A stretch of 63,836 nucleotides of DNA from Clostridiales bacterium (GTDB lineage: Bacteria; Bacillota; Clostridia; Lachnospirales; Lachnospiraceae). The position numbers were made by a program, and so were the translations under genes. The notes beneath the pieces are model-generated. The model did not search any database. It saw nothing but the letters and a program-made list of their open reading frames with translations, and had not been told where the DNA came from. Location of the stretch: positions 1 through 63,836 of the forward strand of contig JAAYPX010000056.1 of the NCBI GenBank assembly GCA_012519565.1, in the 5' to 3' direction. Shown piece by piece: positions 21,522 through 63,797 of this stretch. Every line of letters begins with the position of its first letter. Within the stretch, counting starts at the first letter, position 1.

Positions 21522-22553
21522 TTATGTACTTTCACCTACAATTAATTCTGGTTTAATTAACATGGTTTCTCGCTTACGTTCATTCGGTTTCTCTATTAAA
21601 CCTTGCAAGCAATCATATACCGCTTTACCATATTTATGATAATTAGAACTTATAGTAGTAATCTTGGTCGTTGTAAGATAGGACTCAGCCACATTATCGT
21701 ATCCTGTTATACCAATATCATCTGGTATTTTCAGTCCTGCTTCATGAATAGCTTTCATTGCCCCAATTGCTACATAATCATTAATACATATAACAGCATC
21801 TGGATAAGGCTTCTCCTCTAGTAATAATTTCATATCCATATAACCTACCTCATATCCAAAACCGCTGTGAACCATCTTGCTAACATCTAAATTAATAGAA
21901 TATTCTTTAGCTATTTTCACTGCGTATTGTCTCTTCAATGCAGATGGTACGAAGGTATTACCTCCTCCTATCATTGCTATGTTTTTATAGTTTCTAGATG
22001 CCAAGTGTTCAATAATTAATCGCATACCAATCTCATCATCGACATGGATACCACAGCATCCAAAATCTTCGGCCTTTTCACTACATAAAACACAGGGTAC
22101 AGTCTTGTTTAATTCCTTAATCTCTTTGATGTATCGCTTTTCAAGATTTACCTCATCCACACGACCGCCCATAATGACAATACCATCTACATGCTTCTCC
22201 AGCAAACTCCGCAATAATTTACTTTCCAGTTGCCGTTCATTCTTAGAGTTAACCAGAATAGTCATATAACCATTGAGGCTGGCCCATTTTTCAAATTCGT
22301 AATAAACAGATGCAAAATACATGTTCCCTATATGAGGAACTACATATCCTATGGTTTTCGAAAATCCAGACTGTAGATTTCTGGCGAAGGTATTAGGTTT
22401 AAAATTATATTTTTTTACTAGAGCCTCTATATTCTTCTTGTTTTTTTCAGAAACATAACCATTGCCAGAAATCGCCCTGGATACAGTAGCGGAGGAAACC
22501 CCCGCTTCTTTAGCTATATCATATATAGTAACTCGCTTTTTTATATCGCTCAT
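21522..22553 (-). CDS. LacI-family transcriptional repressor
   Basis: 343 residues. The N-terminal LacI helix-turn-helix and hinge (VTIYDIAKEAGVSSATVSRAISGNGYVSE, about residues 8-36; hinge helix near 50-60) are followed by a periplasmic-binding-protein-like sensor domain (IGYVVP, DGIVIMGG, NDYVAIGAMKAIHEAGLKIP, TGYDN). It has its own consensus promoter, overlapping the end of the preceding permease gene. It is the most likely regulator of the region 3 transport operon, whose promoter carries a LacI-type palindrome at 36624-36639. Confidence 0.93.
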   Translation of the reverse strand: MSDIKKRVTIYDIAKEAGVSSATVSRAISGNGYVSEKNKKNIEALVKKYNFKPNTFARNLQSGFSKTIGYVVPHIGNMYFASVYYEFEKWASLNGYMTILVNSKNERQLESKLLRSLLEKHVDGIVIMGGRVDEVNLEKRYIKEIKELNKTVPCVLCSEKAEDFGCCGIHVDDEIGMRLIIEHLASRNYKNIAMIGGGNTFVPSALKRQYAVKIAKEYSINLDVSKMVHSGFGYEVGYMDMKLLLEEKPYPDAVICINDYVAIGAMKAIHEAGLKIPDDIGITGYDNVAESYLTTTKITTISSNYHKYGKAVYDCLQGLIEKPNERKRETMLIKPELIVGEST

Positions 22554-22617: not shown

Positions 22618-23619
22618 TTATCCCACCAAGCCTGAATTCTCTAAGTTTTCCACCAGCCATCTTTGGGCGATAAAATACACTATAAGCAAAGGAATTAGCA
22701 TAATTAATGCCGCAGCCTGTTTTATCGCATCGAAGGCAAAATCCGAGGCCAGGGGAACATCGTACCATATTTTAACTGCATTTAGTATGAATTCCTTATT
22801 GGCAGATATAAAGGTACTAGACAAGATGGTGCTTAGATATGAACCCTTTGGATTGAAGTAATTGGTATAATAAATATCTCCATAATTCCATACAAAGGAC
22901 AATACAGATACTGTAGCAATAGCTGGAATTGCATTAGGTATCATAATCCTAAAATATGTTTTATAAAAACCGCAACCATCAATCAAAGCCGCTTCCTCTA
23001 ATTCCTTAGGTATATTCTTAAAGAACTGGCTAAATATAAATATAAACAAACTTTGGTTAACTCCAAAACCAAATACGGCCAGTAGGAATAGGGTAATTGG
23101 CTTACCTATTAAATCTATTTCACCAGCGGCAACAAAGAAGTTCATTAGACCAAAGGCAGTAAAATGCTTAAAGTATATGTACTGGGCTAGAAGTAAGGAT
23201 TGCCTTGGTATAAGAAACACTAGGATAACCATAAAATAAACTATTTTATAACCAGGGAACTTAACCCTCGCCAAAGCATATCCAGCCATGGCAGAGAAGA
23301 AAATCTGAACTAACATTACCCCTGCTGCGTATAAAATAGATTTAACCATGGTCATCATCCCCTGGGGCATCAGTAATCTAAAAGCAGCTTTAAAGCTGAC
23401 CACCGATGATTCTAGGGGTATCCAGATTACATTGGGATTCCCCAACTCTTCAATACTGGAGAAAACAGATGGAACCAATTTAATTAAAGGATATAAGATT
23501 ACAAAACATATTCCTGTAATAAGGCAGGCAAGGAAAATCCCTAAAACCACACGAGAGACCTTCTTTTTATATAAATATATAACTAATTCCGGTGAATACT
23601 TACTGGTTTTAACTTTCAT
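22618..23619 (-). CDS. Carbohydrate ABC transporter permease, MalG type (second pair, region 3)
   Basis: 333 residues with about six membrane segments. The EAA loop that docks the ATPase is visible as ELEEAALIDGCGFYKTYFRI near residues 213-232. The N-terminus is longer than in typical MalG proteins. It overlaps the partner permease gene by a few bases and has a GGAGGGG ribosome site. It is the last gene of the region 3 operon. The ATPase must come from elsewhere, as with shared MsmK/UgpC-type subunits. Confidence 0.88.
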   Translation of the reverse strand: MKVKTSKYSPELVIYLYKKKVSRVVLGIFLACLITGICFVILYPLIKLVPSVFSSIEELGNPNVIWIPLESSVVSFKAAFRLLMPQGMMTMVKSILYAAGVMLVQIFFSAMAGYALARVKFPGYKIVYFMVILVFLIPRQSLLLAQYIYFKHFTAFGLMNFFVAAGEIDLIGKPITLFLLAVFGFGVNQSLFIFIFSQFFKNIPKELEEAALIDGCGFYKTYFRIMIPNAIPAIATVSVLSFVWNYGDIYYTNYFNPKGSYLSTILSSTFISANKEFILNAVKIWYDVPLASDFAFDAIKQAAALIMLIPLLIVYFIAQRWLVENLENSGLVG

Positions 23620-24517
23620 ATTTCTTTACCACCCCTCCTAGTAAAAGTAAGGCAATGCCTAGTACCACAACCACATTAAATATATATACTACGGACAGTG
23701 CCGATCCTGTTCCTATCTTACTTTGTTCAAAAGCAAAGCTATATACTTCTTGGGCAATAGGAGAAGACAGGAATAAGTCTACAATAGTATAGATTACTAC
23801 AAAAAGCGTTATATGCATTATAGTAGGAATAGTAACCTTCCAAAAGGTCTCATATTTTGTTGCCCCTTCAATCTTGGCCACTTCATATAAGCTGGGACTA
23901 ATGGATTGTAAGGCCGCTAGATAAACCAATGTCTGAACACCAGCCTGGGAGATTACTTCAAAAATATTATTTACATATTCGATTACTGGTAATAATATAT
24001 CCATCGGTATATCTGTATATCTATATAATAAGACCGTTACATAACTTTCACTAAAAAGTCCCACCTCTGCCTGGGCCCATTCACTGCCAGTGGTTATTGA
24101 TAATGCTGAACTTACCACATCCAATCCAAGTACTATGGGCAGAAAGAAGATTACACGGACAAGCCCCCTGCCTTTGAATTTCATATTAGCCAGTAAAGCC
24201 AAAAACAAGCTAAAAATAACTATTAAAGGAGTGTTCGTAAGTATAGCCATATTCTGATCAGTAAATAATCTGGCCATTGGTTGATAGGTAGTAGTTACCT
24301 CTTTACGGAATAAATCAATATAGTTTTGAATTCCATTAAACGTAAATTTCATACCCCCAGCATCGTGGACACCAACTATATTCAAGGAATAATAAATGGT
24401 ATTAACAAGGGGAATTGCAAAGAATATCAGAAAACCAATGAGAAATGGCAGTACAAATATAAATCCATTGATTTTCCTTTTAGTTGTATATTTTAAAGAT
24501 CTTTTTTTACCCTTCAT
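23609..24517 (-). CDS. Carbohydrate ABC transporter permease, MalF type (second pair, region 3)
   Basis: 302 residues from the ATG giving MKGKKRS, which is six bases from AGGAGG; an ATG two codons earlier abuts that site. Six membrane segments are expected. The EAA loop reads LYEVAKIEGATKYETFWKVTIP near residues 205-226. It resembles the permease encoded at 53517-54509 in region 6, including the long extracellular loop between the first membrane segments. It pairs with 22618-23619. Confidence 0.88.
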   Translation of the reverse strand: MKGKKRSLKYTTKRKINGFIFVLPFLIGFLIFFAIPLVNTIYYSLNIVGVHDAGGMKFTFNGIQNYIDLFRKEVTTTYQPMARLFTDQNMAILTNTPLIVIFSLFLALLANMKFKGRGLVRVIFFLPIVLGLDVVSSALSITTGSEWAQAEVGLFSESYVTVLLYRYTDIPMDILLPVIEYVNNIFEVISQAGVQTLVYLAALQSISPSLYEVAKIEGATKYETFWKVTIPTIMHITLFVVIYTIVDLFLSSPIAQEVYSFAFEQSKIGTGSALSVVYIFNVVVVLGIALLLLGGVVKKYES

Positions 24518-24527
24518 CTCCATCCTC

Positions 24528-27158
24528 CTATTCCACCTCTATTATGTAATCAAGGGGACCAATCGTATAATCTCCAATGCTTACAGTTCTGAGGTTATAG
24601 TTTGTTATGGCACTAACCCCTCCCTCATAATCTGTCCGATAAACATTCTCCATTAACATGGTATGATTTACAATCTTGCCCGAACCAATCATTTCCCTTA
24701 CTTCATTACATTCATCATATACTTCTTTGATAACATCCTTCCAATTATCGTACCTAGTGGAATAGTAATGTGTATATGAAGAAGCCTTAAGGATATCCTC
24801 GCTTTCCTTGGTAATAGTAAACTTAGGATAAGCCCCCAGTTCCACTGCTTGCAGAATATAATATTCCTTCTGATAGGAAGACATATTAACATTTTCCGTT
24901 GTAAATTGTACTAAACCGTTCATAACCAATTGTCTAAATGGAATAGTTGCTGCAAAAGTCGCATAATCACTACTTTCTCTTGAAATCTCCACAGCATACT
25001 CTCCATAAGGTATATACTTCATAAAAGGATCATAAAGGGCTAATTTTTTCTCCTGGGACAACTTAATAAGATTATCATTAAGGATATTCATAGCATCATA
25101 GGTACCCACAACATTGTTAAATTTATAATCTGAGTAATACATATTAGCCAGATCAGGTATGTATAAGGCATCATATTCACGGGATGCTTCAATAAATTTA
25201 TCTACTACTCCATTTAAATAATGGGGAGATATAATATAGTAATAATGTTGTCTTAGGGTCTTACCGCCATCTGCAATACCAATAGTGGGAAGATACCCAT
25301 AAACAGTTACAGGGTTATTGGAATAATCATAGGCTGCATGGAGTTTACGATAAAAGCCACTTCCCCCATCATATACTCTGGATAAGGCCACCTCCAAAAA
25401 CATGTCTATCTTCCTATTGCCCACCAAGGCCATTAGCTGCTTTAAATCCTCTCTTGATCCATTATCTGCTACTAGCTTAGCATCGGAGTTCATTCTATTT
25501 CTAGAGCCTTCATTAAAGACTCCAGAATAATGAATTACCATATCTCTACTACCTAGGTCTTCTATAATACCTATTAAATCCCTATAAGTAGTCATAGAAT
25601 AATTGGTATAATAGGGAACCCCTAAGAATCGTTTGGTCAAACTCACAGTTCCAACTGCCTCCAGATATACTTTGGCATCTCCTTGATAAGAAAGGACCAT
25701 CTGCGGATTGTTCTCCAGTAAATATTTCTGATATTCCATAGCCATATCATAGTAGGTTACAGTCTCAGGGAATAATTTATAGCGTACAGTATAATCTACA
25801 TTCATCATTCCCGAATCTACCAGATAGGTAGCATTATTATCACTATAGGGGCCATATACTTTAACCTTGCTATATTGACATGTATCAAAGGAGGCAAATA
25901 CTTTGTTATACTCAGACCCCACATCCTTATCCTTACTTCCTAGCCTTACATGGATATATGAGGTCTCAGCTCCTTCTTCTATGATAGCCATAAAGCCATG
26001 GCTTGAATTCTCATCCTTGCCATAGGTCATACCATATACAGGCATCATTAATTCTTCACCATATTCTGGAGCAAAGTAATAATCAGAGTAAAAGTCATTA
26101 TTATATACTGGTCTTTTATATTCAGGTATTGTAGGCTTATAGGTATTTAGTTCAAATAAAGCCCCTGCTCCATCGGGAACAAAGATATAACCATCCTCAT
26201 AATCTGCAACCTTAGTAGCGCCAAATCCTGGAAGAACCTTTATATTCTGTATGGTATAAAAGGAGTTATAGGATACCATCTCATAGGAAGGCAATCTAAC
26301 CACTAAGTCATCCCCGTCCAATACCACTTCTAAGGTTATTAAAAAGGAGGCCGGCTCTACCACTGCAAATGTAAGCCCAAAAGCATCGCAATCTTCGATA
26401 AGCATCTCTTGGGTATAGTCCAGCAGTCTTGCTACTTCAATCATTTGATTTACTGCACTGGCTGGCGGATTACCTGTATAAGCAAGAGCATAACACTCTT
26501 CCGTTAAACTTCTTTTATAAACCAGTCTCATTGTCTGCTTATATTTATCAGCCTCTTCTTGCTTTAAAGCACCTGTTGTCACCAGATTATCTAAGCCTTC
26601 CATAAACAACACTTCAAATCTTTCAATAGGTAGTTTCTTAGGGTAATACTCATAGAAACGCCTAGATTCTCCTTCATTTATATGCATTTGTATTTGAACA
26701 CCATTATCAATCTGATACATTTTATATGTATTTAACATGGTACAATAGGTATAAGAATCCCATTCGTATATATTATTATCTTCTCCTAGATAAGATATGG
26801 TTAGTAAAGATAGCTCAGTACCTAAAGGCTCCTTAGGCATAATGGCATTCCACTCTTTACCACTTTTTTTATCAAGTACTTTAATATTCATGTTTTCAGT
26901 ATTAATAAACAACTGCTTATTGTCATTATCACCAACCAATACCTCTCCAGCTTCGATACTTATTTCTTCAGCTACTGTGGATAGGGCTTTCCCTTGAAAA
27001 GCAGGTATTTCATTACGTTTTACTTTTAAGACAGGTATGGCCCAAATCGTAAGAAGAACTGCTATTACCAATAATATGGTGGCAATTAATTTGCCTATTA
27101 GATGAGTACTATAAAATTTCTTAATATACTTTGGCACTTTATGTAATTTATTCTTCAA
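24528..27158 (-). CDS. Large membrane-anchored DUF5696-like protein, possible glycosidase-like fold
   Basis: 876 residues, beginning at TTG with AAAGGGG upstream. A membrane segment lies at about residues 22-44 and the rest is extracellular. The first about 340 residues look like a beta-rich domain (LVVRLPSYEM, PDGAGALFEL), and the second part (about 480-800) alternates helices and strands like a TIM barrel. I recognise it as a DUF5696-type protein, a family found beside sugar permeases in Firmicutes. Resemblance to glycoside hydrolases is an inference from layout, and no catalytic pair can be assigned. It lies between a permease gene and the YIP1-like gene. Its counterpart in region 6 is interrupted by a stop. 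Confidence 0.7.
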   Translation of the reverse strand: MKNKLHKVPKYIKKFYSTHLIGKLIATILLVIAVLLTIWAIPVLKVKRNEIPAFQGKALSTVAEEISIEAGEVLVGDNDNKQLFINTENMNIKVLDKKSGKEWNAIMPKEPLGTELSLLTISYLGEDNNIYEWDSYTYCTMLNTYKMYQIDNGVQIQMHINEGESRRFYEYYPKKLPIERFEVLFMEGLDNLVTTGALKQEEADKYKQTMRLVYKRSLTEECYALAYTGNPPASAVNQMIEVARLLDYTQEMLIEDCDAFGLTFAVVEPASFLITLEVVLDGDDLVVRLPSYEMVSYNSFYTIQNIKVLPGFGATKVADYEDGYIFVPDGAGALFELNTYKPTIPEYKRPVYNNDFYSDYYFAPEYGEELMMPVYGMTYGKDENSSHGFMAIIEEGAETSYIHVRLGSKDKDVGSEYNKVFASFDTCQYSKVKVYGPYSDNNATYLVDSGMMNVDYTVRYKLFPETVTYYDMAMEYQKYLLENNPQMVLSYQGDAKVYLEAVGTVSLTKRFLGVPYYTNYSMTTYRDLIGIIEDLGSRDMVIHYSGVFNEGSRNRMNSDAKLVADNGSREDLKQLMALVGNRKIDMFLEVALSRVYDGGSGFYRKLHAAYDYSNNPVTVYGYLPTIGIADGGKTLRQHYYYIISPHYLNGVVDKFIEASREYDALYIPDLANMYYSDYKFNNVVGTYDAMNILNDNLIKLSQEKKLALYDPFMKYIPYGEYAVEISRESSDYATFAATIPFRQLVMNGLVQFTTENVNMSSYQKEYYILQAVELGAYPKFTITKESEDILKASSYTHYYSTRYDNWKDVIKEVYDECNEVREMIGSGKIVNHTMLMENVYRTDYEGGVSAITNYNLRTVSIGDYTIGPLDYIIEVE

Positions 27159-27210
27159 ATTTATATCCCCTTTCCGCCTTGTTTAATCTACTACTCCTAT
27201 GCAAACACCA

Positions 27211-27831
27211 TTAGTACAGCCTCCTCATAAATTCCTGGCTAACGGAAGAAACAAAAAGAACTATTTTTTCCATCAGGGTGAAAAATAAGACACATAGGAA
27301 TACAATAATTACTGCAGATACAAAAGTTGCTAATATTGTGAGAAGATTGATACCAAAAGTATATTCATGTATTGTGCAAAGCCCTGCTATTAATAAGAAG
27401 ACGAACCAAGCAAAGGCAAACCCCTGTAAGGCCTTAAGAATCATTATTTCTTCTTCTATTACAAAATTGCTAATAAATACTACGGCAGTGTTAACAACTA
27501 TTACAGGGACTAAGGAATAGCATAGTACTATATAAACATCTTTTAGATTACCTTTACCGTTAAATAAAGTTGTTACTGTCCAGTTGCTTACTGTAAATAA
27601 AATAAGTATAGACAATGAGGATATAAATATAGATATACTATTCATACCATGGATATAGTTGTAATTCATAACAAATCCAGTGTATTGGTAGGAAAAACAT
27701 TGCAATAATCCATATAATATTAAGATTATATTGGCAAGTAAAGCACTTCCCTTTTGACGAAATTTTATTTCATAGAAGGCATCAAATGGATGAAATATTG
27801 AATGCTTTAAATAGTGTAGCTTTTGTTTCAT
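27211..27831 (-). CDS. YIP1-family-like integral membrane protein
   Basis: 206 residues, about five membrane segments after an N-terminal motif (KHSIFHPFDAFYEIKFRQKG) typical of bacterial YIP1-domain proteins. Function is unknown. The start overlaps the stop of the NHL/TPR gene by 4 bp, suggesting coupled translation. In region 6 the homologous sequence is the C-terminal part of one polypeptide with the NHL/TPR protein, which strongly suggests that the two products act together at the membrane. Confidence 0.8.
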   Translation of the reverse strand: MKQKLHYLKHSIFHPFDAFYEIKFRQKGSALLANIILILYGLLQCFSYQYTGFVMNYNYIHGMNSISIFISSLSILILFTVSNWTVTTLFNGKGNLKDVYIVLCYSLVPVIVVNTAVVFISNFVIEEEIMILKALQGFAFAWFVFLLIAGLCTIHEYTFGINLLTILATFVSAVIIVFLCVLFFTLMEKIVLFVSSVSQEFMRRLY

Positions 27832-29294
27832 GATGTTTTCCTACCTCCCTTTTTATGATATCTTATCTCTGATATTACTATAGCTCCAATTACCACCACA
27901 AAAATTGCCATAACAATTCCAAAGTTCTCTTTAAGAACTTGACTGCGATAACCATTATAAGCTTTAGAATAAAACTCTCTATTATCACCTAATTTAAAAT
28001 AATACATGGCCATCTCATAATCATCTTTCATCAGATAATTCTTACCGATTCCTGTATAGGCTATTTCATAATTGGAATTTAAACGGATTGCTTCCTTAAA
28101 AAGTTCCAAGGCTTCATCCCATCGACCATAGTAATATGCCTCGCTGGCTCTTAAAGCAATCCTTCCAAAATCTGTTGGTGTTAAAATATAAACGCATTTT
28201 AACATACTATCTGAAACAAGCAATTTATCCCCAAGCCATGCAATACCGCTAGGCATCTGAAACTGACCTTTTAGTTTGCCTTTAGATCCAAAAGCATTGA
28301 GCATCTCCCCATCAAAATTATAGAGAAATATCCTTCCTCTCTGACGATCTACCACTGCATAAGTTCCATACTCTGTAACCGCAATGTCAACAAACTGACT
28401 GTTCTCACCCCACATAGTGTGGATGTCACCCATAACTGGGGTATTTCCTACCTCTCGTAGCACGTTTTTACCGGCTGAGTTTAGGCGAAATACCATATCC
28501 TCAGATGCCCCATCATATGTAACAGCCATAATAAATCCTTCACCATCTAAGGCTATATTGTTAAAAGCAGGAGCAAAGGTCTTGGACATCTGGGCTTTCT
28601 GTTCATCACTGGCTATAGATTTCCAAAAATAATCAATCAGATTAACCCGGGGAGTTGTCACACCAAAGTACCTGGAGAAGGATCCGTCCCCATTTAACTC
28701 TATAATTCCTTCATAACTAGATTGGACTACTACATAAATCCTATCTGCATGATCCACGACTATCTTAGAAGGTTTAAATTCTGTTACACCAGTCATATTG
28801 GCTGGTCTTTCTATGATACGTTTAAAGGTGTATTCATCGCTGTCCAGTACTACTATACGATAAGCCCCTGTATCAGCTATATATATTTCCTTATTCTTCT
28901 CATGAACAAACACTCCTTGGGGAGAGGTTAATATTAATTGATTACCTGTAATAGCATCGGTTACAATCTTACCGTCAGCCCCCCGTATAACTTTTAAGGA
29001 TCTCAGAAGCTGCCCTTCTTCATCAAACACATTTACACGGCTCTCTAGGGTATCTACTATGAAAATGCGCCCATCCTTACTGGCACATACATCATCAACT
29101 CCCAATAATTTAATCCCTTCTAAATTACTTTCATCTATTACCCTCTCCAAAGTAAAGGCTGCAGGACTGTCCAGAGCATTGCCCCAAAAGTCATAAATAT
29201 AGCCATCATACACATAACTAGAACCATCAGAGGCATCTGCCTTAATCGGTGCAAAGAGTATCAACATACATATAATTATTACTATCTTCTTCAT
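27828..29294 (-). CDS. Exported NHL-repeat/TPR protein with C-terminal membrane anchor
   Basis: 488 residues. A signal peptide at residues about 3-22 (ends near ADAS) precedes an NHL-type beta-propeller (about 45-370; repeats with DVCASKDGRIFIVDTLESRVNVFD, KGQFQMPSGIAWLGDKLLVSD). Two TPR-like helical pairs follow (EAYYYGRWDEALELFKEAIRLN), then a membrane segment near 455-475 and a basic tail. The propeller should face outside. I use the ATG giving MKKIVII, eight bases after AAGGGG. Role unknown: perhaps a glycan- or protein-binding scaffold for the neighbouring transporters. Confidence 0.8.
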   Translation of the reverse strand: MKKIVIIICMLILFAPIKADASDGSSYVYDGYIYDFWGNALDSPAAFTLERVIDESNLEGIKLLGVDDVCASKDGRIFIVDTLESRVNVFDEEGQLLRSLKVIRGADGKIVTDAITGNQLILTSPQGVFVHEKNKEIYIADTGAYRIVVLDSDEYTFKRIIERPANMTGVTEFKPSKIVVDHADRIYVVVQSSYEGIIELNGDGSFSRYFGVTTPRVNLIDYFWKSIASDEQKAQMSKTFAPAFNNIALDGEGFIMAVTYDGASEDMVFRLNSAGKNVLREVGNTPVMGDIHTMWGENSQFVDIAVTEYGTYAVVDRQRGRIFLYNFDGEMLNAFGSKGKLKGQFQMPSGIAWLGDKLLVSDSMLKCVYILTPTDFGRIALRASEAYYYGRWDEALELFKEAIRLNSNYEIAYTGIGKNYLMKDDYEMAMYYFKLGDNREFYSKAYNGYRSQVLKENFGIVMAIFVVVIGAIVISEIRYHKKGGRKTS

Positions 29295-29306
29295 CTGCAT
29301 CACCCC

Positions 29307-30194
29307 TTATCCTTTTATTCCAGACGTTGCCATGGTTTCAATAACGTTACTTTGAGAAATTATAAATACGGTGACTGGAACAGACAGCATTATTAATGAA
29401 ATAGCAGAAGAAACACCGGTTCTGGCTATACCTCCACTAACTAATTGGGACAAAACATAACTGACAGGTTTTAGTTCTTCTGAATAGATAAATATACCCC
29501 CCGTTGTTCCCCACATTTGCTGGAAAGACAATATAACTAGGGTTATCCAAGCAGGTTTACATAAAGGCATTACCACTCTCCAATATGTCTTAAACTCACT
29601 GGCCCCATCTATTTTAGCCGCCTCAATCATCTCATCTGGTACTTGAACCATAAAATTTTTCATAAGATAAAGTCCTAATGTGGATCCTACTGCTGGTAAG
29701 ATAACCGCCCAATAGGTATCCACCAATCCTAAACTACTCATAATTAAATAGTTGGGTATGGCTGTAACTGTACCATTAAACATTAGGGCATAGACAATAA
29801 TATTATTCATTAAACTTGCCCCTGGGAATTTATATTTGGAAAGGGGAAAGGCTGCCATAGATCCTAACAAAACAGTCCCCACTGTTCCTAGGCCTGTTAT
29901 AATAGTTGTATTAAAAATATATCGGGATAAAGGTATCCTAAAGGTTTCTACTATAGTAGCTAAATCGTGGAAATTGTTAAGGGTTGGGTTATCCACCTTA
30001 AGCCTAGGGGGAAAGATAAATATTTCACTTAAGGGCTTAAAGGCACTAACTATAGTATAGATCAGAGGAAAAAGGCTAAATAACCCGAAGAAACCCAGTA
30101 TTATAAAGAGGCTAATATCACCGCCCAGGCTACGGTTTCTTCGTCTGATTTTCCTGGTTTTAATTTTCGTAACTATTTTTTTATATAATTGCAT
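29307..30194 (-). CDS. Carbohydrate ABC transporter permease, MalG type (first pair, region 3)
   Basis: 295 residues from the ATG with GGAGG seven bases upstream. A basic cytoplasmic N-terminus (KIKTRKIRRRNRS) is followed by six membrane segments. The EAA loop is MIEAAKIDGASEFKTYWRVVMPLCKPA near residues 189-215. It ends with the MalG-like MATSGIKG. It pairs with 30233-31135 and should work with one of the two upstream binding proteins. Confidence 0.9.
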   Translation of the reverse strand: MQLYKKIVTKIKTRKIRRRNRSLGGDISLFIILGFFGLFSLFPLIYTIVSAFKPLSEIFIFPPRLKVDNPTLNNFHDLATIVETFRIPLSRYIFNTTIITGLGTVGTVLLGSMAAFPLSKYKFPGASLMNNIIVYALMFNGTVTAIPNYLIMSSLGLVDTYWAVILPAVGSTLGLYLMKNFMVQVPDEMIEAAKIDGASEFKTYWRVVMPLCKPAWITLVILSFQQMWGTTGGIFIYSEELKPVSYVLSQLVSGGIARTGVSSAISLIMLSVPVTVFIISQSNVIETMATSGIKG

Positions 30195-30232
30195 ATTTAC
30201 CTCCACTCTTACTTATTCTTCAAATTTACCAA

Positions 30233-31135
30233 TTATCCAAGCTTACGAAGCAGCTTTTGAACTATAATATTAGAAAAAACCATTATGAAGAATAACAAAA
30301 CTGCAATTGTACAAGCATATCCCAATTCATACCTGACGTTGCCATAGTCATGAAGATGAGTAAGAATGGTATGCCCTGCATAATTTACCGAAGGAAATCC
30401 AACCAGATCAATGGATATCTGAGCTACTGACAGTGAACTGGTTATCTGCATAACAGCACCAAACATCAATTGTGGTTTCATTGAAGGCAGTGTTATATAC
30501 CATAATTCCTGCCAGCGGTTTTTGATCCCCTCCACTGCAGCACATTCATATAGGGATTTATCTACATTCTGCAATCCCGCTATAAAGGATAAGAAACTGA
30601 CACCTAAACTAAGCCATAATTGAACTACAATTAGAATGGGCATAATATAATCGGCTTTTTCAAACCATAAAACGGCCTGTTGGGTAAAACCCAATTTCAT
30701 AAGCCAGGCATTGGCCCAGCCATAGGTATCTGATGAGAATATTAACTTCCAAACCATATATGCATTACCTGATATAGATGGTGCATAGAATACCAAGGTC
30801 ATAATCGCCCTTGGTATTCTTGGAAGTTCATTAATCAACCAAGCAAACAGGAAACACATAATATAGCTTATGGGCCCTGTAATTAAGGCAAAGACCAGGG
30901 TATTTTTTATAGCAATAAGAAAGACATCATCTTCAACAATAAGATTAATATAATTATCAAGTCCTACAAAAGTCGGTAATTCTACCATATTAAAGGAAGT
31001 AAAACTTAAGTAGATAGATAGAATTACTGGTAGGAAGGTAAATGTTATAAAAATAATTGCAAAAGGAGCGACCATTAAATATTTATATTTATGGTGTTTC
31101 CATGCCAAAGCAAATGATTCCCTATTCTTTTTCAC
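30233..31135 (-). CDS. Carbohydrate ABC transporter permease, MalF type (first pair, region 3)
   Basis: 300 residues, GTG start with GGAGGAA seven bases upstream. Six membrane segments; EAA loop LYECAAVEGIKNRWQELWYITLP near residues 199-221. It closely resembles 59818-60723 in region 6. It lies directly after the giant binding protein gene, so the two probably form one importer. Confidence 0.9.
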   Translation of the reverse strand: MKKNRESFALAWKHHKYKYLMVAPFAIIFITFTFLPVILSIYLSFTSFNMVELPTFVGLDNYINLIVEDDVFLIAIKNTLVFALITGPISYIMCFLFAWLINELPRIPRAIMTLVFYAPSISGNAYMVWKLIFSSDTYGWANAWLMKLGFTQQAVLWFEKADYIMPILIVVQLWLSLGVSFLSFIAGLQNVDKSLYECAAVEGIKNRWQELWYITLPSMKPQLMFGAVMQITSSLSVAQISIDLVGFPSVNYAGHTILTHLHDYGNVRYELGYACTIAVLLFFIMVFSNIIVQKLLRKLG

Positions 31136-31189
31136 AGAACTATTCCTCCAATCTGTTGTATTCTCATTTTGTAATACTCAGGATACTAA

Positions 31190-34108
31190 TTATTTAGTTA
31201 CCAATAAGGGATTAAGACTTAGATTAAACTCCATACGCTTTTTATAAAGCTCTTTATCTATAGCTTTAATATTTAGATAAAGCGTCTCCCTAGGATTTGA
31301 TAGTTCAGCTACTACTGTATTAAAGGCATACTGTATCATTCTAGCTGTCATATAATTACCTGGAACAGCCTGAAGGCCTATATTATGCTCCAACTGTCCC
31401 AATAACTGCTTAAGCTCTGCATTACTCCAGGGTAACATACTAATTACACCAGGATCTGCTGCAGCATATCTAGCAGCGGTACCCATGATAGCCTCTAGGG
31501 TATTGGCATATTGCAGTTGGGAATCAGTACTAGTCCACCATTTTAAGAACTCCCATGAGTCATCCAAATTCTTGCAGCCTTTCATAATTACACTTTGTAC
31601 AGTGTCTGCTATGTATGTTCTATCAATAAATCCATCTTCCTTTTGAACACCAGGTAGCGGTGCAAAGGACCATAAACCTTTTATCTCAGGAGCAAATATC
31701 TCCAATTGACAATAGGTGGTATAATTGGTAATTCCAATAGGCATCTCTCCTGTACGGAAGCGGTTGGAGAAATCAGCACTAACAAGTAAACCATAACTGG
31801 TATAAAAATCAGTAAAGTCCTTAAAGGCAATCATAGCTTCGTCGTCATATAATGCACTACTAATACCATAATCATTACCTTTACCCCGATATAGGTCGCC
31901 TCCATATTGATAAACCATGGAAGAATATAAATTCATATTGCTGGGAAGATAAAAATCATAGTTACTCTTTTTAAGAACTGGTATCATCTCTCTTACATCA
32001 TCCCAGGTATTGGGTATAGTTAATCCCAACTCATCCAGAATATCTTTACGGTAAAATAGCATCATAAAGTTTTCTTGCTCTGGTAGACCGTATACACCAC
32101 CTTGGTACATAGCACATTGGATTGCACTTTCATGGAACTTCTCAGTCACTTCTTCAAAATCATCAAAGATTGTTAAATCAGTTATCGCATTACGCATTGC
32201 AAAATCCTGTAAAGTTCCTTGCCCAAGGCCGATTACCACATCAGGTCCATCACCAGCAAGGGCCGCCCTTAAGACAACATCCACTGGTATTAATTGTAGA
32301 TTCACCTGAATACCGGTATTAGGAGAGAAGGATTCATCTATCATATTTTGAATAATTTGTGCCTGCTCCCTACCGGTAGAAGCCGATGTAGTCATCCAGA
32401 CCTTAATTGCCTCATCAGAAACAACTTCATCTGCATCTATCTGATTACTCTTTACAAAAAATGTTGAAAAGAATCGTACCACACCATAATATATACTTTC
32501 AAAGATATTATCCTTTGGTTTTGGAAGAGACTTAAGATCTCCGCCAATTATCACTGCATCTATCTCCAGAGGCATCTCAGATATACTAACTAGCCAAGTA
32601 CCCAGTGCTGAGATATTATTTTTTAATTGATTTAATTCCTCAATAACACTCTCAGGATCATCCGCAAGCCATGCAGCTTCCATGGCCATCTTTTCAAGTA
32701 GACTGGTATTTTCCCCTTTTTCACCGGTGATTTCCACCATGGTATCTACCAAGTTAAACAGACGCTGACTTTCATTTTCCATTGTTTCTACAAACTGGGG
32801 TATTTTTTTTGTAATTTGATAATCTATGTATTTGTATGGTGTTTGTCCTGTAATTTGAATAACTTTTAAATATAGATTATTGAGCTTTTGCATACTATCT
32901 TCAACTTCATATAGGATACCTCCAAGACCTCCTAGAACATTTTCTAAGGTAATAGTATTGGCACCCTTTTTAAGATAAAATAGATAAGGTTCTCCCTTTT
33001 CATCGGCAATCGTATAATTGACCATATTACTGCTATATCCAAAACCAATGGAATTCATCTCCTGGTAGGGCACCTCACCGTTAATATATAGCCTTCTATA
33101 AGAAGTAACCCCTCTTTGTAAGCTCTGTCTCCCCTTAAAAGTTATTGGATATAAGCCTTCTTCTTCCACCTCAATTACCCATGTAATTAAATCTCCTGGT
33201 TGCTTCCAGCTATCAGCACCTATGGTGTTATAAACTATACGATAAGGATGGTAAGGAACTAACCTAGAATCAGAATAATTAGTTTTTATATTTATAGAAG
33301 GAGAGCTTTTTTCTATAAATAAAGTACTCCCTTCTGAACGTTCTGCTTGACTTATAATAATATCATCATTTACAGGATAATTATTTTTCAAAGTATTAAT
33401 TTTACTCTTATAAGAATCAGGTTTATCAGCAGCTTTAAATACAATGCTTGTATATTGGATTGGCTCTTTAATTACTTCAAAGGTCAATGTATGTTTACCC
33501 TTGGACAGATAAAATAGTATCGGCTCCCCAACCCTTCTATTATAATCTTCAATAAATACCTTGGTTTCTTTATATATTTCCTTAGCATTGGGCCTGATTT
33601 CATTCTTATTTTTAGTAATTATTGTTTCATCGGACCACCAACGTTTAAATACTATCTGTTGTAATCCATCATGGCATATTACACCATCTAATAAGATTTT
33701 TCTTTGAATATCGGAATAAGTCCCTGGCAAGGCAATATATCCCACTTCCAGATTATAAAATCCTGCTTCTTCAACATTAAAATCCCAACTAATTGATCCG
33801 CTGGCTCCCGTCAGCAGACCCTCCTGCCCTATTTCAACTTCCATATCCTCATGGGCTGTATATTTACTTAAATCAATAACAACTTCTCCATCAGCCAGGG
33901 TACCGTCAAATTCATTATCTTCCAGATACTTCTGATATGTTTCCTCATAAAAAACTTCCGATAATACTGGCACTGCATAGAGCTTTGAGGCTTTGCTATT
34001 CTTTGATATAAAAAATATAGATGCAGAAACAGCACCAATTACAAGAATAGCTAATATATAAATCCTCCACTTTTTTCTTATTATCATCCCAATCACCATG
34101 CCTTTCAT
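31190..34108 (-). CDS. Giant extracellular solute-binding protein with N-terminal carbohydrate-binding-like domains
   Basis: About 972 residues; a start seven codons further in is also possible. An N-terminal membrane segment (core IYILAILVIGAVSASIFF) has no lipobox cysteine, so it is probably a membrane anchor. Two beta-sandwich regions (about 60-230 and 260-400) contain patterns seen in CBM6/35-like modules (EEAGFYNLEVGYIALPG, EEEGLYPITFKGRQSL, YLKKGANTITLENVLGG). A helical linker precedes a complete family 1 sugar-binding domain from about residue 580 (VWMTTSASTGREQAQIIQNM, GDGPDVVIGLGQG, WEFLKWWTS). Typical sugar-binding proteins have about 430 residues, so the N-terminal half is extra. 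It probably captures glycans at the surface and hands them to the following permeases. Confidence 0.82.
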   Translation of the reverse strand: MKGMVIGMIIRKKWRIYILAILVIGAVSASIFFISKNSKASKLYAVPVLSEVFYEETYQKYLEDNEFDGTLADGEVVIDLSKYTAHEDMEVEIGQEGLLTGASGSISWDFNVEEAGFYNLEVGYIALPGTYSDIQRKILLDGVICHDGLQQIVFKRWWSDETIITKNKNEIRPNAKEIYKETKVFIEDYNRRVGEPILFYLSKGKHTLTFEVIKEPIQYTSIVFKAADKPDSYKSKINTLKNNYPVNDDIIISQAERSEGSTLFIEKSSPSINIKTNYSDSRLVPYHPYRIVYNTIGADSWKQPGDLITWVIEVEEEGLYPITFKGRQSLQRGVTSYRRLYINGEVPYQEMNSIGFGYSSNMVNYTIADEKGEPYLFYLKKGANTITLENVLGGLGGILYEVEDSMQKLNNLYLKVIQITGQTPYKYIDYQITKKIPQFVETMENESQRLFNLVDTMVEITGEKGENTSLLEKMAMEAAWLADDPESVIEELNQLKNNISALGTWLVSISEMPLEIDAVIIGGDLKSLPKPKDNIFESIYYGVVRFFSTFFVKSNQIDADEVVSDEAIKVWMTTSASTGREQAQIIQNMIDESFSPNTGIQVNLQLIPVDVVLRAALAGDGPDVVIGLGQGTLQDFAMRNAITDLTIFDDFEEVTEKFHESAIQCAMYQGGVYGLPEQENFMMLFYRKDILDELGLTIPNTWDDVREMIPVLKKSNYDFYLPSNMNLYSSMVYQYGGDLYRGKGNDYGISSALYDDEAMIAFKDFTDFYTSYGLLVSADFSNRFRTGEMPIGITNYTTYCQLEIFAPEIKGLWSFAPLPGVQKEDGFIDRTYIADTVQSVIMKGCKNLDDSWEFLKWWTSTDSQLQYANTLEAIMGTAARYAAADPGVISMLPWSNAELKQLLGQLEHNIGLQAVPGNYMTARMIQYAFNTVVAELSNPRETLYLNIKAIDKELYKKRMEFNLSLNPLLVTK

Positions 34109-34249
34109 CAAAGCCTTTATTCTTTTACTCTGTTGGAGCAATATTCTATCTTCTTGTGGCAATTTACTATCGAGAACAATGACTTATCAATACCTTTCTT
34201 ACGCACCATGTGCTTCATGTGAACTGAGTTCCCATGGCAGAGTTTTATG

Positions 34250-34268
34250 CTTGGTAGATATTACCAAG
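34250..34268. other. Short perfect hairpin in the intergenic space
   Basis: CTTGGTA-GATAT-TACCAAG, a 7-bp stem with a 5-base loop, sits between the terminator-like hairpin at 34281-34320 and the giant binding protein gene. It is a possible RNA processing or 5' stabilising structure. Confidence 0.4.
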
Positions 34269-34280
34269 GAGTTTCTATCA

Positions 34281-34320
34281 AGAAAAAGAAGGTGCCCCAC
34301 AGGAAGGACTTAGGGACACC
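34281..34320 (-). terminator. Terminator-like hairpin between two binding-protein genes
   Basis: On the minus strand GGTGTCCC (34320-34313) pairs with GGGGCACC (34298-34291), 8 bp with one G-U, and is followed by TTCTTTTTCT. It lies after the 34405-36522 gene. It probably stops part of the transcription, so that the first binding protein is made in excess over the downstream genes. Confidence 0.6.
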
Positions 34321-34404
34321 CTCTATAACCGACATAGCCTGCGGTTTAAGTATTACTTATACTTCAAAGAATTATAAATATAGCAAATCATTAATAATTA
34401 TAAT

Positions 34405-36522
34405 CTACTCCTCACCGGCCTTAACCTGTACTTTGATAGTTACAGTGGTTTCATTACCAGCAAAGTCTTTAACTGTAAGTGGTAGGTCATATTCTCCAGG
34501 TGTAGTTGTATCAAGGTCTGATAGGTCTGCGGTGACATTGCTCTTAACATCTATACCATCTGCATCAACAGCACTTTCCACAAAATCTCCTGCCCAATTA
34601 ATTTCTGAAGTATCTTCATCTAATTTGATTGTGCGATATTCAGCCTTGATTTCTAAGGTTGGAGCTGTTTTATTATCTGGATCATATATATTTACAGTAA
34701 CATTTCTACTTGCTTCGTTGCCTGCAGCATCTTTAATAACTGCTTTTAGACCATTATTATATACACCAACTGCACTAAAGTCTGTGGCAGAATAATCGTA
34801 ACTAGCAGTAGTAGTATCAAGTACTCCATCCACGGCATCCTCAGCAGTAAAGTAAATTGACCAATCTACAGTTGTAGGATCAGTACCCTTAGGTAAGGCT
34901 ACAGTTTCTTCTTGATCAATACTTGGTGCAATATTATCATGGATTTCACCACTGGCAAGAATTGTTTCCATATCGTTAATAACCTTAGTAAATTGATCTT
35001 TGTTAGCTGCTATGGCGACATCATATGCTGGCATACCTTCAATTCCATAAAGTCCCTTACCAAGGATTACATCCCAAGTACCTCTAACGCCAATCAGATC
35101 AGCATAATCATTAGCAACACACTTACTTGCTACATATTGGAAAGACTTAAGTACATTATCACCATACTTCTCATTGAAAATATCAAAACCATAGGCTGCT
35201 GCCTGATTAGCTGCTGCTTCATTTTTATAATTTACAATATTACTTACTCCGCCATATACTTCATAATAGGTCTTCCAATATAATCTAAAGAACTCTAATG
35301 CTAGCTGGGTTTTCTCTTTGGATACACCCTTAAGAATTGCAATACTATCACCAGCGGTCATAACTTGGCGGTAATTCTCATCATCAAATGGCATATCATC
35401 TGGTCTAGGATATGCTACAATACCAATAGCCTCTCCCCGGTCAGCAGCCGCTGAAGCCGAACCAGTAATCCACCAGTCAGGACAATCTGTAAATACAGTT
35501 CCGCCATCCTGGAAATCAGACCCCCCCTTGGTCCAAACTGGGATATAGCCGTCACTATATGTACCAGGGTCTGTCATAAGTCCCGTATTTTTTAAATCAG
35601 CTATAAACTGAGCTGCAGCTATGGATTGTGGTGAATCTATCTGCAAACCATTTACGCCATAGATAGCACCGCCAGCTGCATAGGTGGCTGAAAGGGCGGC
35701 AAAACGCCAGTCTGTTTCATAGGCCTGGATTGTATCATGGGCACATGAATCTGGTGCAGGAACATTGGCATAGTGAGCTTGGATTTTAGCCAGATAATCC
35801 TTAAAGGTACTCCAAGTCCATTTACCCTCGAAGAATAAATCGTGAGGATAAACAGTTTCCCCTTTATCATTCTTTAAAGAGTCAACCTGTTCTATCATTG
35901 TAATGTTATAAAGAAGAGGCCATCTCTGTACAAAAGTCTGTTTCCATGTTAAGAAATAATTATGTCCATAAATCTTGTCATACCACATCCATGAATATTC
36001 ATCATCTTCATAAAGATAAGCATACTCATCTAGTTCTTGAAGGATATTCTGGGCTAAAATTGTGGATTCTGCGCCACCCCAGATACCTGCGATATCACAT
36101 ACAGGGTCATTGGCTAAAACACTGGTAATCAATTCACTTCTAACGTCTTGAACATATTGAACATATTCAACCTCAACATTAAGTTCTTCTTTTACCTTCT
36201 CAAGCGCTGCTAAAGCCGCTTGTCTAGAGGCTTCGTCCATAGTGTATTCACCAGTAGCTTCATCGACCCAATAAGGATCAAGATTACTCATATTGTGCCA
36301 GCCCCAACGTATAACAGTCGGTTCTTTTGCTGGAGCTTCTGTAGGACTTGATGCGACTGCGTCTGTAGGAGATACTTTGCTGTCATTATTACTGTCATCG
36401 TTTTGCTTAGTTTGGTTATCTGCAGGGGTATCTTTATCCTTTGAACAACCTGTCATAATAGACATAACTAGCACTAAAGCTATTCCTAAACATAATAGCT
36501 TCCTCAATAATGCTCTTAACAT
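34405..36522 (-). CDS. Sugar-binding lipoprotein with C-terminal Ig-like domains
   Basis: 705 residues. A signal peptide ends in the lipobox MTGC (Cys near residue 27). A Ser/Thr/Asp/Pro-rich linker leads into an extracellular solute-binding domain (about 70-520; YVQYVQDVRSELITSVLAND, GGTVFTDCPDWWITGSA). Two tandem Ig-like domains of the type with VxDxAGNxx repeats (AVIKDAAGNEASRNVTV near 610; LTVKDFAGNETTVTIKV at the end) complete the protein. Such domains are unusual on a binding protein and may space the lipoprotein through the wall or bind polysaccharide. It is the first gene of the region 3 operon and sits behind a consensus promoter with a LacI-type operator. Confidence 0.88.
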   Translation of the reverse strand: MLRALLRKLLCLGIALVLVMSIMTGCSKDKDTPADNQTKQNDDSNNDSKVSPTDAVASSPTEAPAKEPTVIRWGWHNMSNLDPYWVDEATGEYTMDEASRQAALAALEKVKEELNVEVEYVQYVQDVRSELITSVLANDPVCDIAGIWGGAESTILAQNILQELDEYAYLYEDDEYSWMWYDKIYGHNYFLTWKQTFVQRWPLLYNITMIEQVDSLKNDKGETVYPHDLFFEGKWTWSTFKDYLAKIQAHYANVPAPDSCAHDTIQAYETDWRFAALSATYAAGGAIYGVNGLQIDSPQSIAAAQFIADLKNTGLMTDPGTYSDGYIPVWTKGGSDFQDGGTVFTDCPDWWITGSASAAADRGEAIGIVAYPRPDDMPFDDENYRQVMTAGDSIAILKGVSKEKTQLALEFFRLYWKTYYEVYGGVSNIVNYKNEAAANQAAAYGFDIFNEKYGDNVLKSFQYVASKCVANDYADLIGVRGTWDVILGKGLYGIEGMPAYDVAIAANKDQFTKVINDMETILASGEIHDNIAPSIDQEETVALPKGTDPTTVDWSIYFTAEDAVDGVLDTTTASYDYSATDFSAVGVYNNGLKAVIKDAAGNEASRNVTVNIYDPDNKTAPTLEIKAEYRTIKLDEDTSEINWAGDFVESAVDADGIDVKSNVTADLSDLDTTTPGEYDLPLTVKDFAGNETTVTIKVQVKAGEE

Positions 36523-36644: not shown

Positions 36645-36674
36645 ATTATATTATAGAATGGTAGTAGTTGTCAA
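36645..36674 (-). promoter_or_regulatory. Consensus promoter of the region 3 transport operon
   Basis: On the minus strand TTGACA (36669-36674), 18-bp spacer, TATAAT (36645-36650). The leader to the 36522 ATG is about 115 nt. The remaining part of the 36523-36772 gap holds no gene. Confidence 0.75.
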
Positions 36675-37603: not shown

Positions 37604-37634
37604 ATTATAATTCCCTTCTCCTCTAAAATGCTGT

Positions 37635-38674: not shown

Positions 38675-38688
38675 AATAGTTTTTCTTA

Positions 38689-49896: not shown

Positions 49897-50829
49897 TTAC
49901 TTATCTTCTTTCTTCCTTAAAACCACAGCGCCTGCTCCAGCACCAAGTGCTACTAGGCCATATACTAAAGCATAGGAAACTGCGCCAGTTTTTGGTGTAG
50001 CTTCTGTACTGGTTGATTTCGCTGATCCTTCGGATGAAGTAGTAGATGATGCTGATGTTGATGCAGGAGTATTCATTGCTTCCTTAATCTCTTCTTCATT
50101 AAGGACAGTATTATAAACCTTAAAATCATCAATTAAACCCTTCATATTAATATCCCAGCAGTTGATTCCAAGATATATTTTTGCATCACCTTCAAAGACT
50201 TCAGTTGCCACATTACCTTCAGATAAGTACTCACCATTTATATATAATTTGCCTAATACTGTATTAGCTTCTAAACCAGGAGTACTAGCATCTACGGTTA
50301 CTGCTATATGGGTCCATTCATTACTAGGCATTAGGTATCCTGGCCCACCGGAAAACCAAGGCCAAGCTGCTGTAGTCTCATTTCTTGACCACATTACTGG
50401 TGCCATATCCCCATCCCAATCAGTTTTTGTAATATTTAGCCACTTAGCGGATGCATTCTGACTAAGTAGGTCAGATCCGATTTGAACTAAAGGACCATAG
50501 TTTGAAAATCCAGCAGGGTTTATCCAGAAAGCTATCGTATAAGATGAACCTGCAGGTTCAGCATCCAATAACACTCCATAGGTACCATCAAGGTAAAGGG
50601 CTTGACTGTTTTTACCCTCCTGAAATTGAGCCTTAACACTTGTATCTACTTCGGGCATGGTACCTGCATTACCACCATTCTCGTTGTCTCCCTTTCTAGT
50701 CAATGTTTGTGCTCCCCCTAGCGTGCCATCAAAGCCATTTTCATAGATAGGAGTGGCCGCTAATGCTGTCGTTGTAACAGATAATGAAATAAGCATTGCG
50801 ATTACTGCTACCAGCATCTTTTTCTTCAT
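49897..50829 (-). CDS. Cell-surface LamG/concanavalin-like protein with sortase-type anchor
   Basis: 310 residues. Signal peptide to about residue 24 (ATTALAATP). A LamG-like jelly-roll domain covers about 25-235 (GTYGVLLDAEPAGSSYTIAFWINP, EWTHIAVTVDAS, GLIDDFKVYNTVLNEEEIKEAMN). A Ser/Thr-rich linker leads to ATPKTGAVSYAL, a hydrophobic segment and RKKEDK, the layout of an LPxTG-like wall anchor with PKTG. It probably displays a glycan-binding module on the wall. It follows the region 6 binding-protein gene by 130 bp and may be the last gene of that operon. Confidence 0.85.
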   Translation of the reverse strand: MKKKMLVAVIAMLISLSVTTTALAATPIYENGFDGTLGGAQTLTRKGDNENGGNAGTMPEVDTSVKAQFQEGKNSQALYLDGTYGVLLDAEPAGSSYTIAFWINPAGFSNYGPLVQIGSDLLSQNASAKWLNITKTDWDGDMAPVMWSRNETTAAWPWFSGGPGYLMPSNEWTHIAVTVDASTPGLEANTVLGKLYINGEYLSEGNVATEVFEGDAKIYLGINCWDINMKGLIDDFKVYNTVLNEEEIKEAMNTPASTSASSTTSSEGSAKSTSTEATPKTGAVSYALVYGLVALGAGAGAVVLRKKEDK

Positions 50830-52525: not shown

Positions 52526-53524
52526 TTATTCACCTGTGATTCCTGTTCTATCAACACTTTCTACGAAATATTTCTGCAAGAAAGCATACATTATCAGTAA
52601 TGGTAGAATACTCAACATAGTTCCTGCCATCTTAATTGATTCATTGATATTACCAAGCTGCTGTTGATTACCTTGGTTATACTGAGCATATATATCTTCA
52701 AAGTTCTTAAGCTCCACTACCAGTGAAGTCCATTTATTGGCATTGCCAGTTCCTAATCCTGAAATATATAAGGTAGTTAGATAGGATTCATTCCAATACC
52801 ATACAATTGAAAATAGAAACACTACCAATATTGCAGGTGCTGCAGATGGAATAGCAATTTTTAAATAGGATCTAAAATATCCTGCTCCATCAATTTGAGC
52901 CGCCTCAATCAATGACTGGGGTACCTGCTTAAAAAACTGATAAAATAGTAATATGAATATCTGGGAACTAACTCCTTGCCCTAGTATTGCAGGAAAATTA
53001 AATGCATTTAAAGAGCCAATTAATTTAAATTTTGTATATAAGACATAGGTCGGCATCATAGTGACTTGCGTAGGCAGTATGAAAGAAAATAATAGTATAG
53101 CCATCATAAGCTTCTTTCCCTTAAACTCAAACCTGGCAAATCCATATCCAATAAAGGAACAACTAACTACTTGAAGCAATGTTGGAAGACCAGCAATGAT
53201 TACACTCTTTAAGAAACTCTTCCAAAACTCCATTACCTTTGATGCTTTGATATAATTATCCAAGTATAGTGTTGATGGTATCCATCGTATTGAAGCATCC
53301 AATAAGTCTTCCACAGACATCAAACTGGTACTTAACATATAAAGCAATGGATAAAGATAAACAAATCCAATCCCAATCAATAATATATACTTAACCAGTA
53401 AGACAAGGATACCCTGCCGGTCCTTTGAACCTAGAAACAACTTATGTAATTTCTCTTTATTTAGATCTGGAGGTACGAACATAACCTTATCTTTTTTACT
53501 AAAGTCATTATTTTTTTCATTCAT
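52526..53524 (-). CDS. Carbohydrate ABC transporter permease, MalG type (second pair, region 6)
   Basis: 332 residues with a long cytoplasmic N-terminus (about 45 residues) before the first membrane segment. EAA loop LIEAAQIDGAGYFRSYLKIAIPSAAPA near residues 214-240; ends YFVESVDRTGITGE. It resembles 22618-23619 in region 3, including the extra loop near residue 270. It overlaps its partner gene by 8 bp. Confidence 0.9.
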   Translation of the reverse strand: MNEKNNDFSKKDKVMFVPPDLNKEKLHKLFLGSKDRQGILVLLVKYILLIGIGFVYLYPLLYMLSTSLMSVEDLLDASIRWIPSTLYLDNYIKASKVMEFWKSFLKSVIIAGLPTLLQVVSCSFIGYGFARFEFKGKKLMMAILLFSFILPTQVTMMPTYVLYTKFKLIGSLNAFNFPAILGQGVSSQIFILLFYQFFKQVPQSLIEAAQIDGAGYFRSYLKIAIPSAAPAILVVFLFSIVWYWNESYLTTLYISGLGTGNANKWTSLVVELKNFEDIYAQYNQGNQQQLGNINESIKMAGTMLSILPLLIMYAFLQKYFVESVDRTGITGE

Positions 53525-56290: not shown

Positions 56291-56293
56291 TTG

Positions 56294-58898: not shown

Positions 58899-58926
58899 TG
58901 AAACCATAACCTCCCTTTCTCATCCA

Positions 58927-63694: not shown

Positions 63695-63797
63695 GTTATC
63701 CCTCCACCTACTATTTATTACATTCTTAGACATAAACATTACTTAATTTACTTAATTCAAATGTTTAATATTCAATTATGCGTTTAACTTTAAAGTA

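Follow-up and report, generated by a model that had tools for sequence, protein, structure and literature searches.

The DNA analysed here, called the window below, is a stretch of 63,836 nucleotides, the entire contig JAAYPX010000056.1 (C165 in our numbering) of a Lachnospiraceae genome (Clostridiales bacterium, GCA_012519565.1; 2.77 Mb in 269 contigs). It carries, on the minus strand, two copies (a and b) of a transport cassette in which eight domains follow each other in identical order: a giant binding protein (B), a MalF/MalG permease pair (Fg, Gg), an NHL/TPR protein (N), a YIP1 protein (Y), a DUF5696 protein (D) and a second MalF/MalG pair (Fd, Gd). A second binding protein (S), only probable in copy a, accompanies them. 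The cassette consists of a core, N-Y-D-Fd-Gd, and of a second, detachable importer, B-Fg-Gg, and we consider it fairly probable that together they make up a membrane-anchored glycan-uptake module. A joint function is well supported, at the level of sequence, by gene order and co-occurrence.

Copy a occupies positions 22618-34162, plus the probable second binding-protein gene reaching 36522, and copy b positions 52526-63739, plus the second binding protein at 50963-52483. From B through Gd, the intergenic distances in copy a range from -11 to 54 nt. The position of S differs: in copy a it precedes B, in copy b it follows Gd. Identity between the copies is 27% for B, 42% for Fg, 41% for Gg, 28% for N, 27% for Y, 22% for D, 34% for Fd and 30% for Gd, and at such levels (22-42%) the two copies are not a recent repeat. 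The first-pass annotation of the window was right about the eight domains and their shared order, but had counted a separate YIP1 gene in copy b, where YIP1 is fused to the NHL/TPR protein (56832-58907). The same genome holds more cassettes on contigs C158 and C168. In addition, in that genome, DUF5696 positions 205-612 are found at the end of C93 and positions 4-181 at the beginning of C261; the two pieces are probably one cassette split by the assembly.

Loci for comparison were collected by their DUF5696 match alone, disregarding the neighbours. They came from the genomes of relatives, from a phylum sample (20 loci), and from the best 80 of at least 570 named loci, that is, those most similar to the D of the window. 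In a first count of gene order, unlabelled open reading frames (ORFs) of less than 330 aa were skipped, and an N without a called Y was scored as N/Y present. An extended count had 20 further loci, took D of at least 550 aa, removed D proteins at least 90% identical, and passed over all unlabelled genes. Loci too close to a contig end were dropped from both. Fd-Gd lay downstream of D in 164 of 165 testable loci in the first count, in which one locus is counted twice (L048 and L107 have an identical 12 kb stretch), and in 172 of 173 in the extended one. Likewise N, with or without a called Y, lay upstream of D in every case (158/158 and 166/166). The only locus breaking the D-then-Fd-Gd rule, L233, has 69% G+C, and ORF calling is poor there. 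B-Fg-Gg stood ahead of N-Y-D-Fd-Gd in 131 of 141 testable loci, and 122 of 134 were colinear in the extended count. The gene order of the cassette is thus conserved far beyond chance; taxa among the named loci listed are Lachnospiraceae, Paenibacillus, Cohnella, Lederbergia, Treponema and Mahella.

In 12 loci (L219, L250-L259, L265), profiles recognised no B-Fg-Gg directly upstream of NY-D-Fd-Gd, although a divergent form is possible, as L219 has a 1018-aa protein ahead of NY and L258 an S-Fg-Gg set downstream. B-Fg-Gg was located after Gd in L225, L229, L231 and L267, and also in L176, the upstream end of which is cut. The related loci L260, L263 and L266 retained the usual order. In the variant of L040 and L082, Gg is downstream of the second binding protein, with Fg still beside B. 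The loci where B-Fg-Gg is unrecognised upstream, or found downstream, indicate that N, Y and D are partners of Fd-Gd. The cassette is therefore not one fixed eight-gene block, as first pictured.

In profile searches of 61 genomes, the 31 with N were also those with Y and with full-length D. Two genomes with partial PF18952 matches only, and neither N nor Y, were scored as lacking D (G043, E 1e-11, over the cut-off, and G055, 1.9e-4, below it). Of 81 N matches, 72 had a D match at most 3.5 kb away. The remaining nine abut a contig end, and the contig ends fetched for unpaired N matches held permease and N genes, one of them with the start of D. On these counts and those of gene order, the three non-transport genes do not sit mostly away from such permeases, as the proposal of one assembly required. 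Within an even phylum sample of 398 genomes, 37 had a strong DUF5696 match (best E <1e-100). The weak PF18952 matches of this sample (9 of 46 positive genomes), and those below the cut-off in Thermotoga and Lactococcus controls, are taken for probable other barrel enzymes.

In copy a, N (27828..29303, minus strand, as are all cassette genes below) matches NHL (E 4.3e-08), with sub-threshold TPR matches, and has one hydrophobic segment at each end (residues 7-25 and 462-480). Y (27211..27831) matches Yip1 (PF04893, E 3.3e-16) and has five hydrophobic segments. The fused protein of copy b (56832..58907, 691 aa) has a Pfam NHL match, a Yip1 match at residues 516-664 (E 5.3e-09) and seven hydrophobic segments, and N-Y fusion recurs in 63 proteins of at least 600 aa, duplicates being kept. 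Candidate YIP1-DUF5696 fusions in L129, L175 and L216 were rejected: the D ORFs contain no YIP1 match, and are over-long ORFs that overlap Y in another frame. Anchors were predicted with a simple hydrophobicity scan. It gave 98 of 108 N a segment at both ends, 85 of 108 Y five segments, and most D (158 of 167) and B (127 of 143) a single one, a pattern that makes it likely that the large domains of these proteins are extracellular and tethered. YIP1 had been noted as having no role in known sugar importers. However, YknW, a YIP1-family protein, is described as modulating the assembly of the ABC exporter YknWXYZ of Bacillus (PMC4887032), and in the cassettes, including both window copies with their Pfam Yip1 matches, the domain adjoins ABC permeases. 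By analogy, YIP1 would hold the extracellular NHL/TPR domain at the membrane, and the two would probably organise the core permease as YknW does for the exporter.

The D protein of copy a (24528..27158; PF18952, E 9.4e-130) has a predicted N-terminal anchor and a predicted GH129/GH101 fold (glycoside hydrolase families, GH). An AlphaFold2 (AF2) model built from 41 sequences reached a predicted local distance difference test (pLDDT) score of 85.8, and Foldseek placed it closest to GH129 enzymes (5opq, E 3.6e-29), then to GH101. The D profile also reaches GH129 by sequence (8rzk, E 1.6e-10). A search of the PDB with a single D protein returned nothing relevant, unlike the profiles. Residues were counted in 146 D, D ORFs of less than 700 aa, copy b of the window among them, being left out. 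The active-site Asp of NagBb (chain position 322, altered in the mutant chain 5wzq) is on a strand that is conserved in D, but at the aligned position, 545, only 6 of 146 have Asp and none has Glu. We therefore do not regard the family as a standard GH129. Judging from these residues, some of its members at least are probably non-catalytic, and the role of the DUF5696 protein would be mainly to hold glycans rather than to cut them.

It could be, instead, that D is a true membrane-tethered glycosidase, of a divergent GH129-like family and without the NagBb-type Asp, which trims oligosaccharides next to the importers, with N and Y only assisting in its folding or placement. This is a serious possibility, if short of probable. 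The modelled fold is that of active GH129 enzymes, and ZgGH129, which also has no Asp at the position equivalent to NagBb 322 in our alignment, is reported to be active with only one of the two NagBb catalytic residues conserved, Asp435, as its Asp486 (PMC5698469). The tentative counterpart in D, reached by a weak alignment chain, is D677, where 110 of the 146 have Asp; 96 have it at D669 as well. Moreover, the corresponding C. bescii gene is labelled GH129 in Rodionov et al. 2021 (PMC8579813). On the other hand, neither D669 nor D677 is Asp in 24 of 146, including the nearest relatives of copy b, nor in the D of copy b itself, and the sole barrel acid that is acidic in all 146, E773, sits on a helix in the model. 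In Pfam, copy a D matches only PF18952, not the GH129 model PF11308, and the latter had no match in the 61 genomes, 31 of them with D, where the controls gave no match either. In the 398 genomes, 37 with a strong D, it matched one, G384, which has no strong D; the Asp435 mapping is tentative because relatives came from that one genome. The GH129-family protein found there (L185:1418-4033) is weakly similar to DUF5696.

The D gene of copy b (54515..56905; identified by Pfam and by alignment with relatives) is interrupted by one in-frame TAG. The 203-aa ORF 56294-56905, without Pfam match, occupies the slot where YIP1 was expected; it is in frame with the ORF 54515-56290 and is the N-terminus of D, severed by that single codon. 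Six aligned relatives have no stop at this position, and no internal stop was seen in the other PF18952 matches of the 61-genome search, which makes programmed read-through, as far as sequences tell, less likely than a disabled gene or an assembly error.

The B of copy a (31190..34162) is a predicted anchored protein of 990 aa with SBP_bac_1, the solute-binding protein (SBP) domain, at residues 601-882 (E 1e-26) and a CBM_35 match below the cut-off. Its AF2 model (40 sequences, pLDDT 88.0) begins with an N-terminal helix, followed by two beta-rich regions and a helical one, and ends in an SBP of MalE type. These additional beta-rich regions may hold polysaccharide. The B of copy b (60740..63739, 999 aa; E 1.4e-22) and the S of copy b (50963..52483, 506 aa; E 1.6e-11) also have SBP_bac_1. 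The S of copy a (34405..36522, 705 aa), to which we assign this role from its position, has a lipoprotein-like N-terminus by eye and an Ig-like C-terminus. It showed no binding-protein match in Pfam or NCBIfam, only sub-threshold Ig-like ones; its S profile label is a self-match, and its similarity to the S of copy b is weak (18% over 257 aa, E 0.010).

The permeases were scored for the EAA loop with a loose pattern, a stricter one matching Fd in only 4 of 184. The loose pattern was found in 168/169 Fg, 161/165 Gg, 171/184 Fd and 141/190 Gd, and in all six of the window permeases displayed. In copy a, an EAA-type loop is present in Fg (30233..31135) and Gg (29307..30206), and Fd (23609..24523) and Gd (22618..23619) are supported by profile matches, identity to copy b and the EAA pattern. 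Their counterparts in copy b are Fg at 59818..60723, Gg at 58927..59799, Fd at 53517..54509 and Gd at 52526..53524, assigned by their identity to copy a. No ATPase gene lies within the window cassettes. One match in the genome exceeds the NF008653 cut-off, outside the cassettes on contig C125 (a 274-aa frame, matched over 255 of the model's 357 positions), and would serve the cassette permeases.

The module that we favour would work as follows. Plant polysaccharides would be cut by enzymes encoded nearby. B, the large anchored binding protein of the second importer, with two beta-rich, carbohydrate-module-like regions ahead of its SBP, and the tethered DUF5696 protein, with its glycosidase fold beside one MalF/MalG importer, would then hold or trim oligosaccharides at the membrane and hand them over to the permeases, which an ATPase of MsmK type encoded elsewhere would drive. 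A binding protein is usually encoded near the core. We infer the physical assembly, the hand-over of oligosaccharides and the substrates in the host genome. The earlier idea of a scaffold and an enzyme coupled to two importers is kept in modified form, as the enzyme role of DUF5696 is doubtful with the NagBb Asp position so rarely kept, and as the second importer is detachable.

A simpler explanation would be two ordinary CUT1 importers with three co-regulated but separately acting genes, and no machine at all. CUT1 permease pairs that share a common MsmK ATPase are known (PMC8579813), and gene order by itself is compatible with this. We find it unlikely, as the order N-D-Fd-Gd is kept in at least 164 of 165 loci that could be tested, across Lachnospiraceae, Paenibacillus and Treponema, and the adjoining enzymes vary; B-Fg-Gg moves as a block, N-Y-D is apart from Fd-Gd only in the poorly called L233, and N and Y fuse. 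Still, several points weigh against a single module. An operon can be conserved without its products forming a complex. The G043 match to PF18952 exceeds the cut-off, yet no cassette gene is present at that locus. Given how often D677 is kept, part of the DUF5696 family may be catalytic. The beta-rich regions of B come from the model and a sub-threshold CBM_35 match; 49 of 190 Gd do not fit even the loose EAA pattern; and the NF008653 model is broad, matching in 14 of 14 controls, eight of them over the cut-off. Finally, N, Y and D could be a glycan sensor or a cell-envelope device that controls uptake without partaking in it, propeller and TPR domains often mediating recognition and a pseudo-glycosidase being able in principle to sense sugars, but this is very improbable, since the Pfam matches of N, Y and D include no signalling domain and dedicated LacI-type regulators stand nearby.

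Genes around the cassettes give a view of possible substrates. The scan covered 89 of 167 representatives of co-oriented flanking-gene clusters, and considered the 25 commonest of 143 families. Among these were GH43, GH2, GH35, GH36, GH5, GH30, GH76, GH42, GH88, GH67, GH113 and GH10, listed with no background comparison; selected neighbours also included GH26, GH3, GH16, CBM65 and an arabinofuranosidase. It seems that the module is used for several plant glycans. Against this, HSP33, queuosine synthesis and a heavy-metal domain are among the flanking genes too. The biggest flanking-gene cluster (40 members) has a LacI-type representative, and near the window copies are a LacI-type regulator, glucosamine-6-phosphate deaminase and rhamnose genes. 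The LacI-family gene adjoining copy a (21522..22553, minus strand) has LacI-type proteins as its top NCBIfam matches, all under the cut-off. A motif scan placed a promoter-like site ahead of it (22617-22589), and another upstream of copy a (36645..36674, minus strand) fits the sigma-70 consensus at 12 of 12 positions. The latter is suggestive only, because promoter-like sites are no commoner in the window than in shuffles (90 found versus 87.0).

Other genes deserve mention. Downstream of copy b, a LamG-type lectin-like protein (49897..50829, minus strand; Laminin_G_3, E 1.1e-19) has a C-terminus that resembles a sortase signal by eye; its cluster has five members, all five downstream of a cassette. 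A 1062-aa protein (L077:11746-14931), without Pfam match at 1e-5, belongs to a cluster of seven, downstream of a cassette in seven cases. Directly upstream of copy a is a third, ordinary-looking set of binding protein and two permeases (36773-39981), and near that copy a heparinase II/III-like protein (40593-42341; Pfam E 1.2e-06) without NCBIfam name. Farther off, the region 246-12763 is a neighbourhood of rhamnose/propanediol microcompartment type, with a phosphate propanoyltransferase, an RnfC-like protein, a class II aldolase, aldehyde and alcohol dehydrogenases and a ribose-type ABC importer; short ORFs at 3109-4161 could be candidate shell proteins. On the plus strand, 13001-16399 encodes a response regulator with an AraC-type helix-turn-helix and a Cache-domain histidine kinase, a pair that is likely sugar-responsive.

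The cassette had been put forward as undescribed, which holds for part of it. Rodionov et al. 2021 (PMC8579813) list in C. bescii an operon, xloEFG-X-GH129-axoFGE-xynF-xynE-xynD-xyn10A-xynX-xynB, induced on xylan and cellulose. Two CUT1 importers there flank X and 'GH129' in the order B-Fg-Gg-NY-D-Fd-Gd-S, with a shared ATPase; as given in that paper it is a set of two transporters plus enzymes, and X and GH129 carry no role in its account of the operon. Copy b and the locus L227 match the SBP-permease-permease-X-GH129-permease-permease-SBP order of its Table 3, though equivalence to the C. bescii genes is drawn from gene order only, which tempers this comparison. L227, the sole locus fetched from its genus, which is presumably Caldicellulosiruptor, reads B-Fg-Gg-NY-D-Fd-Gd-S-S-GH43, and 10 of 11 genomes of the genus have a full-length D match. 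If locus tags start at Athe_0174 and follow the operon order, the second binding protein, axoE, would have the tag Athe_0181, which a review describes as a non-catalytic protein boosting a cellulase-mannanase on palm kernel meal (PMC10492685). The cello-oligosaccharide transporter of PMC12838199 was rejected as a counterpart, being a different C. bescii locus. In the open-licence literature searched, we found no paper naming DUF5696, none linking YIP1 and NHL repeat with binding protein and permease, and none linking a Yip1 domain, an ABC transporter and polysaccharide utilization. The cassette is a CUT1 importer variant, listed as an operon in one species, the accessory core of which is unexplained in the literature found.

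If N, Y and D are obligate importer parts, a common route of plant-glycan uptake has so far been annotated as plain permeases and unknown genes; among the enzymes beside the cassettes are some that act on xylan, mannan and beta-glucan. DUF5696 would gain a fold and a testable role, bacterial YIP1 would gain a second ABC-transporter setting, and a glycosidase fold would have been reused beside a transporter.

Compared with known systems, the cassette resembles YknWXYZ in having a YIP1-family protein that would work with an ABC transporter, Y standing beside permeases here. It differs in that YknWXYZ, as described in PMC4887032, is an exporter, has a membrane-fusion protein and permeases of a different kind, and lacks NHL/TPR and DUF5696. 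With GH129 (NagBb, ZgGH129/DagB) and GH101, D shares the modelled overall fold, and with GH129 a distant sequence similarity; unlike GH129 enzymes, it rarely has the NagBb Asp and is constantly linked to permeases. As in CUT1 importers with a shared MsmK/MsmX ATPase, there are MalF/MalG pairs with EAA-type loops, binding proteins and no dedicated ATPase. Unlike in ordinary CUT1 systems, most operons have two permease pairs, the giant binding protein is anchored and has additional regions, and N, Y and D are constantly associated. In outline, the arrangement recalls the Sus system of Bacteroidota, where an importer is accompanied by binding proteins at the surface and by a tethered barrel protein; the cassette has no TonB transporter, and its parts and those of Sus have no known relation. 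Tentatively, and with less confidence than in the module itself, one may picture in Firmicutes, and in some Treponema, a family of sugar importers with DUF5696, a tethered pseudo-glycosidase, and an NHL/TPR-YIP1 scaffold at their centre. The scaffold would bring one or two pairs of permeases together in a single machine at the cell surface, and in function this would be a Gram-positive equivalent of Sus.

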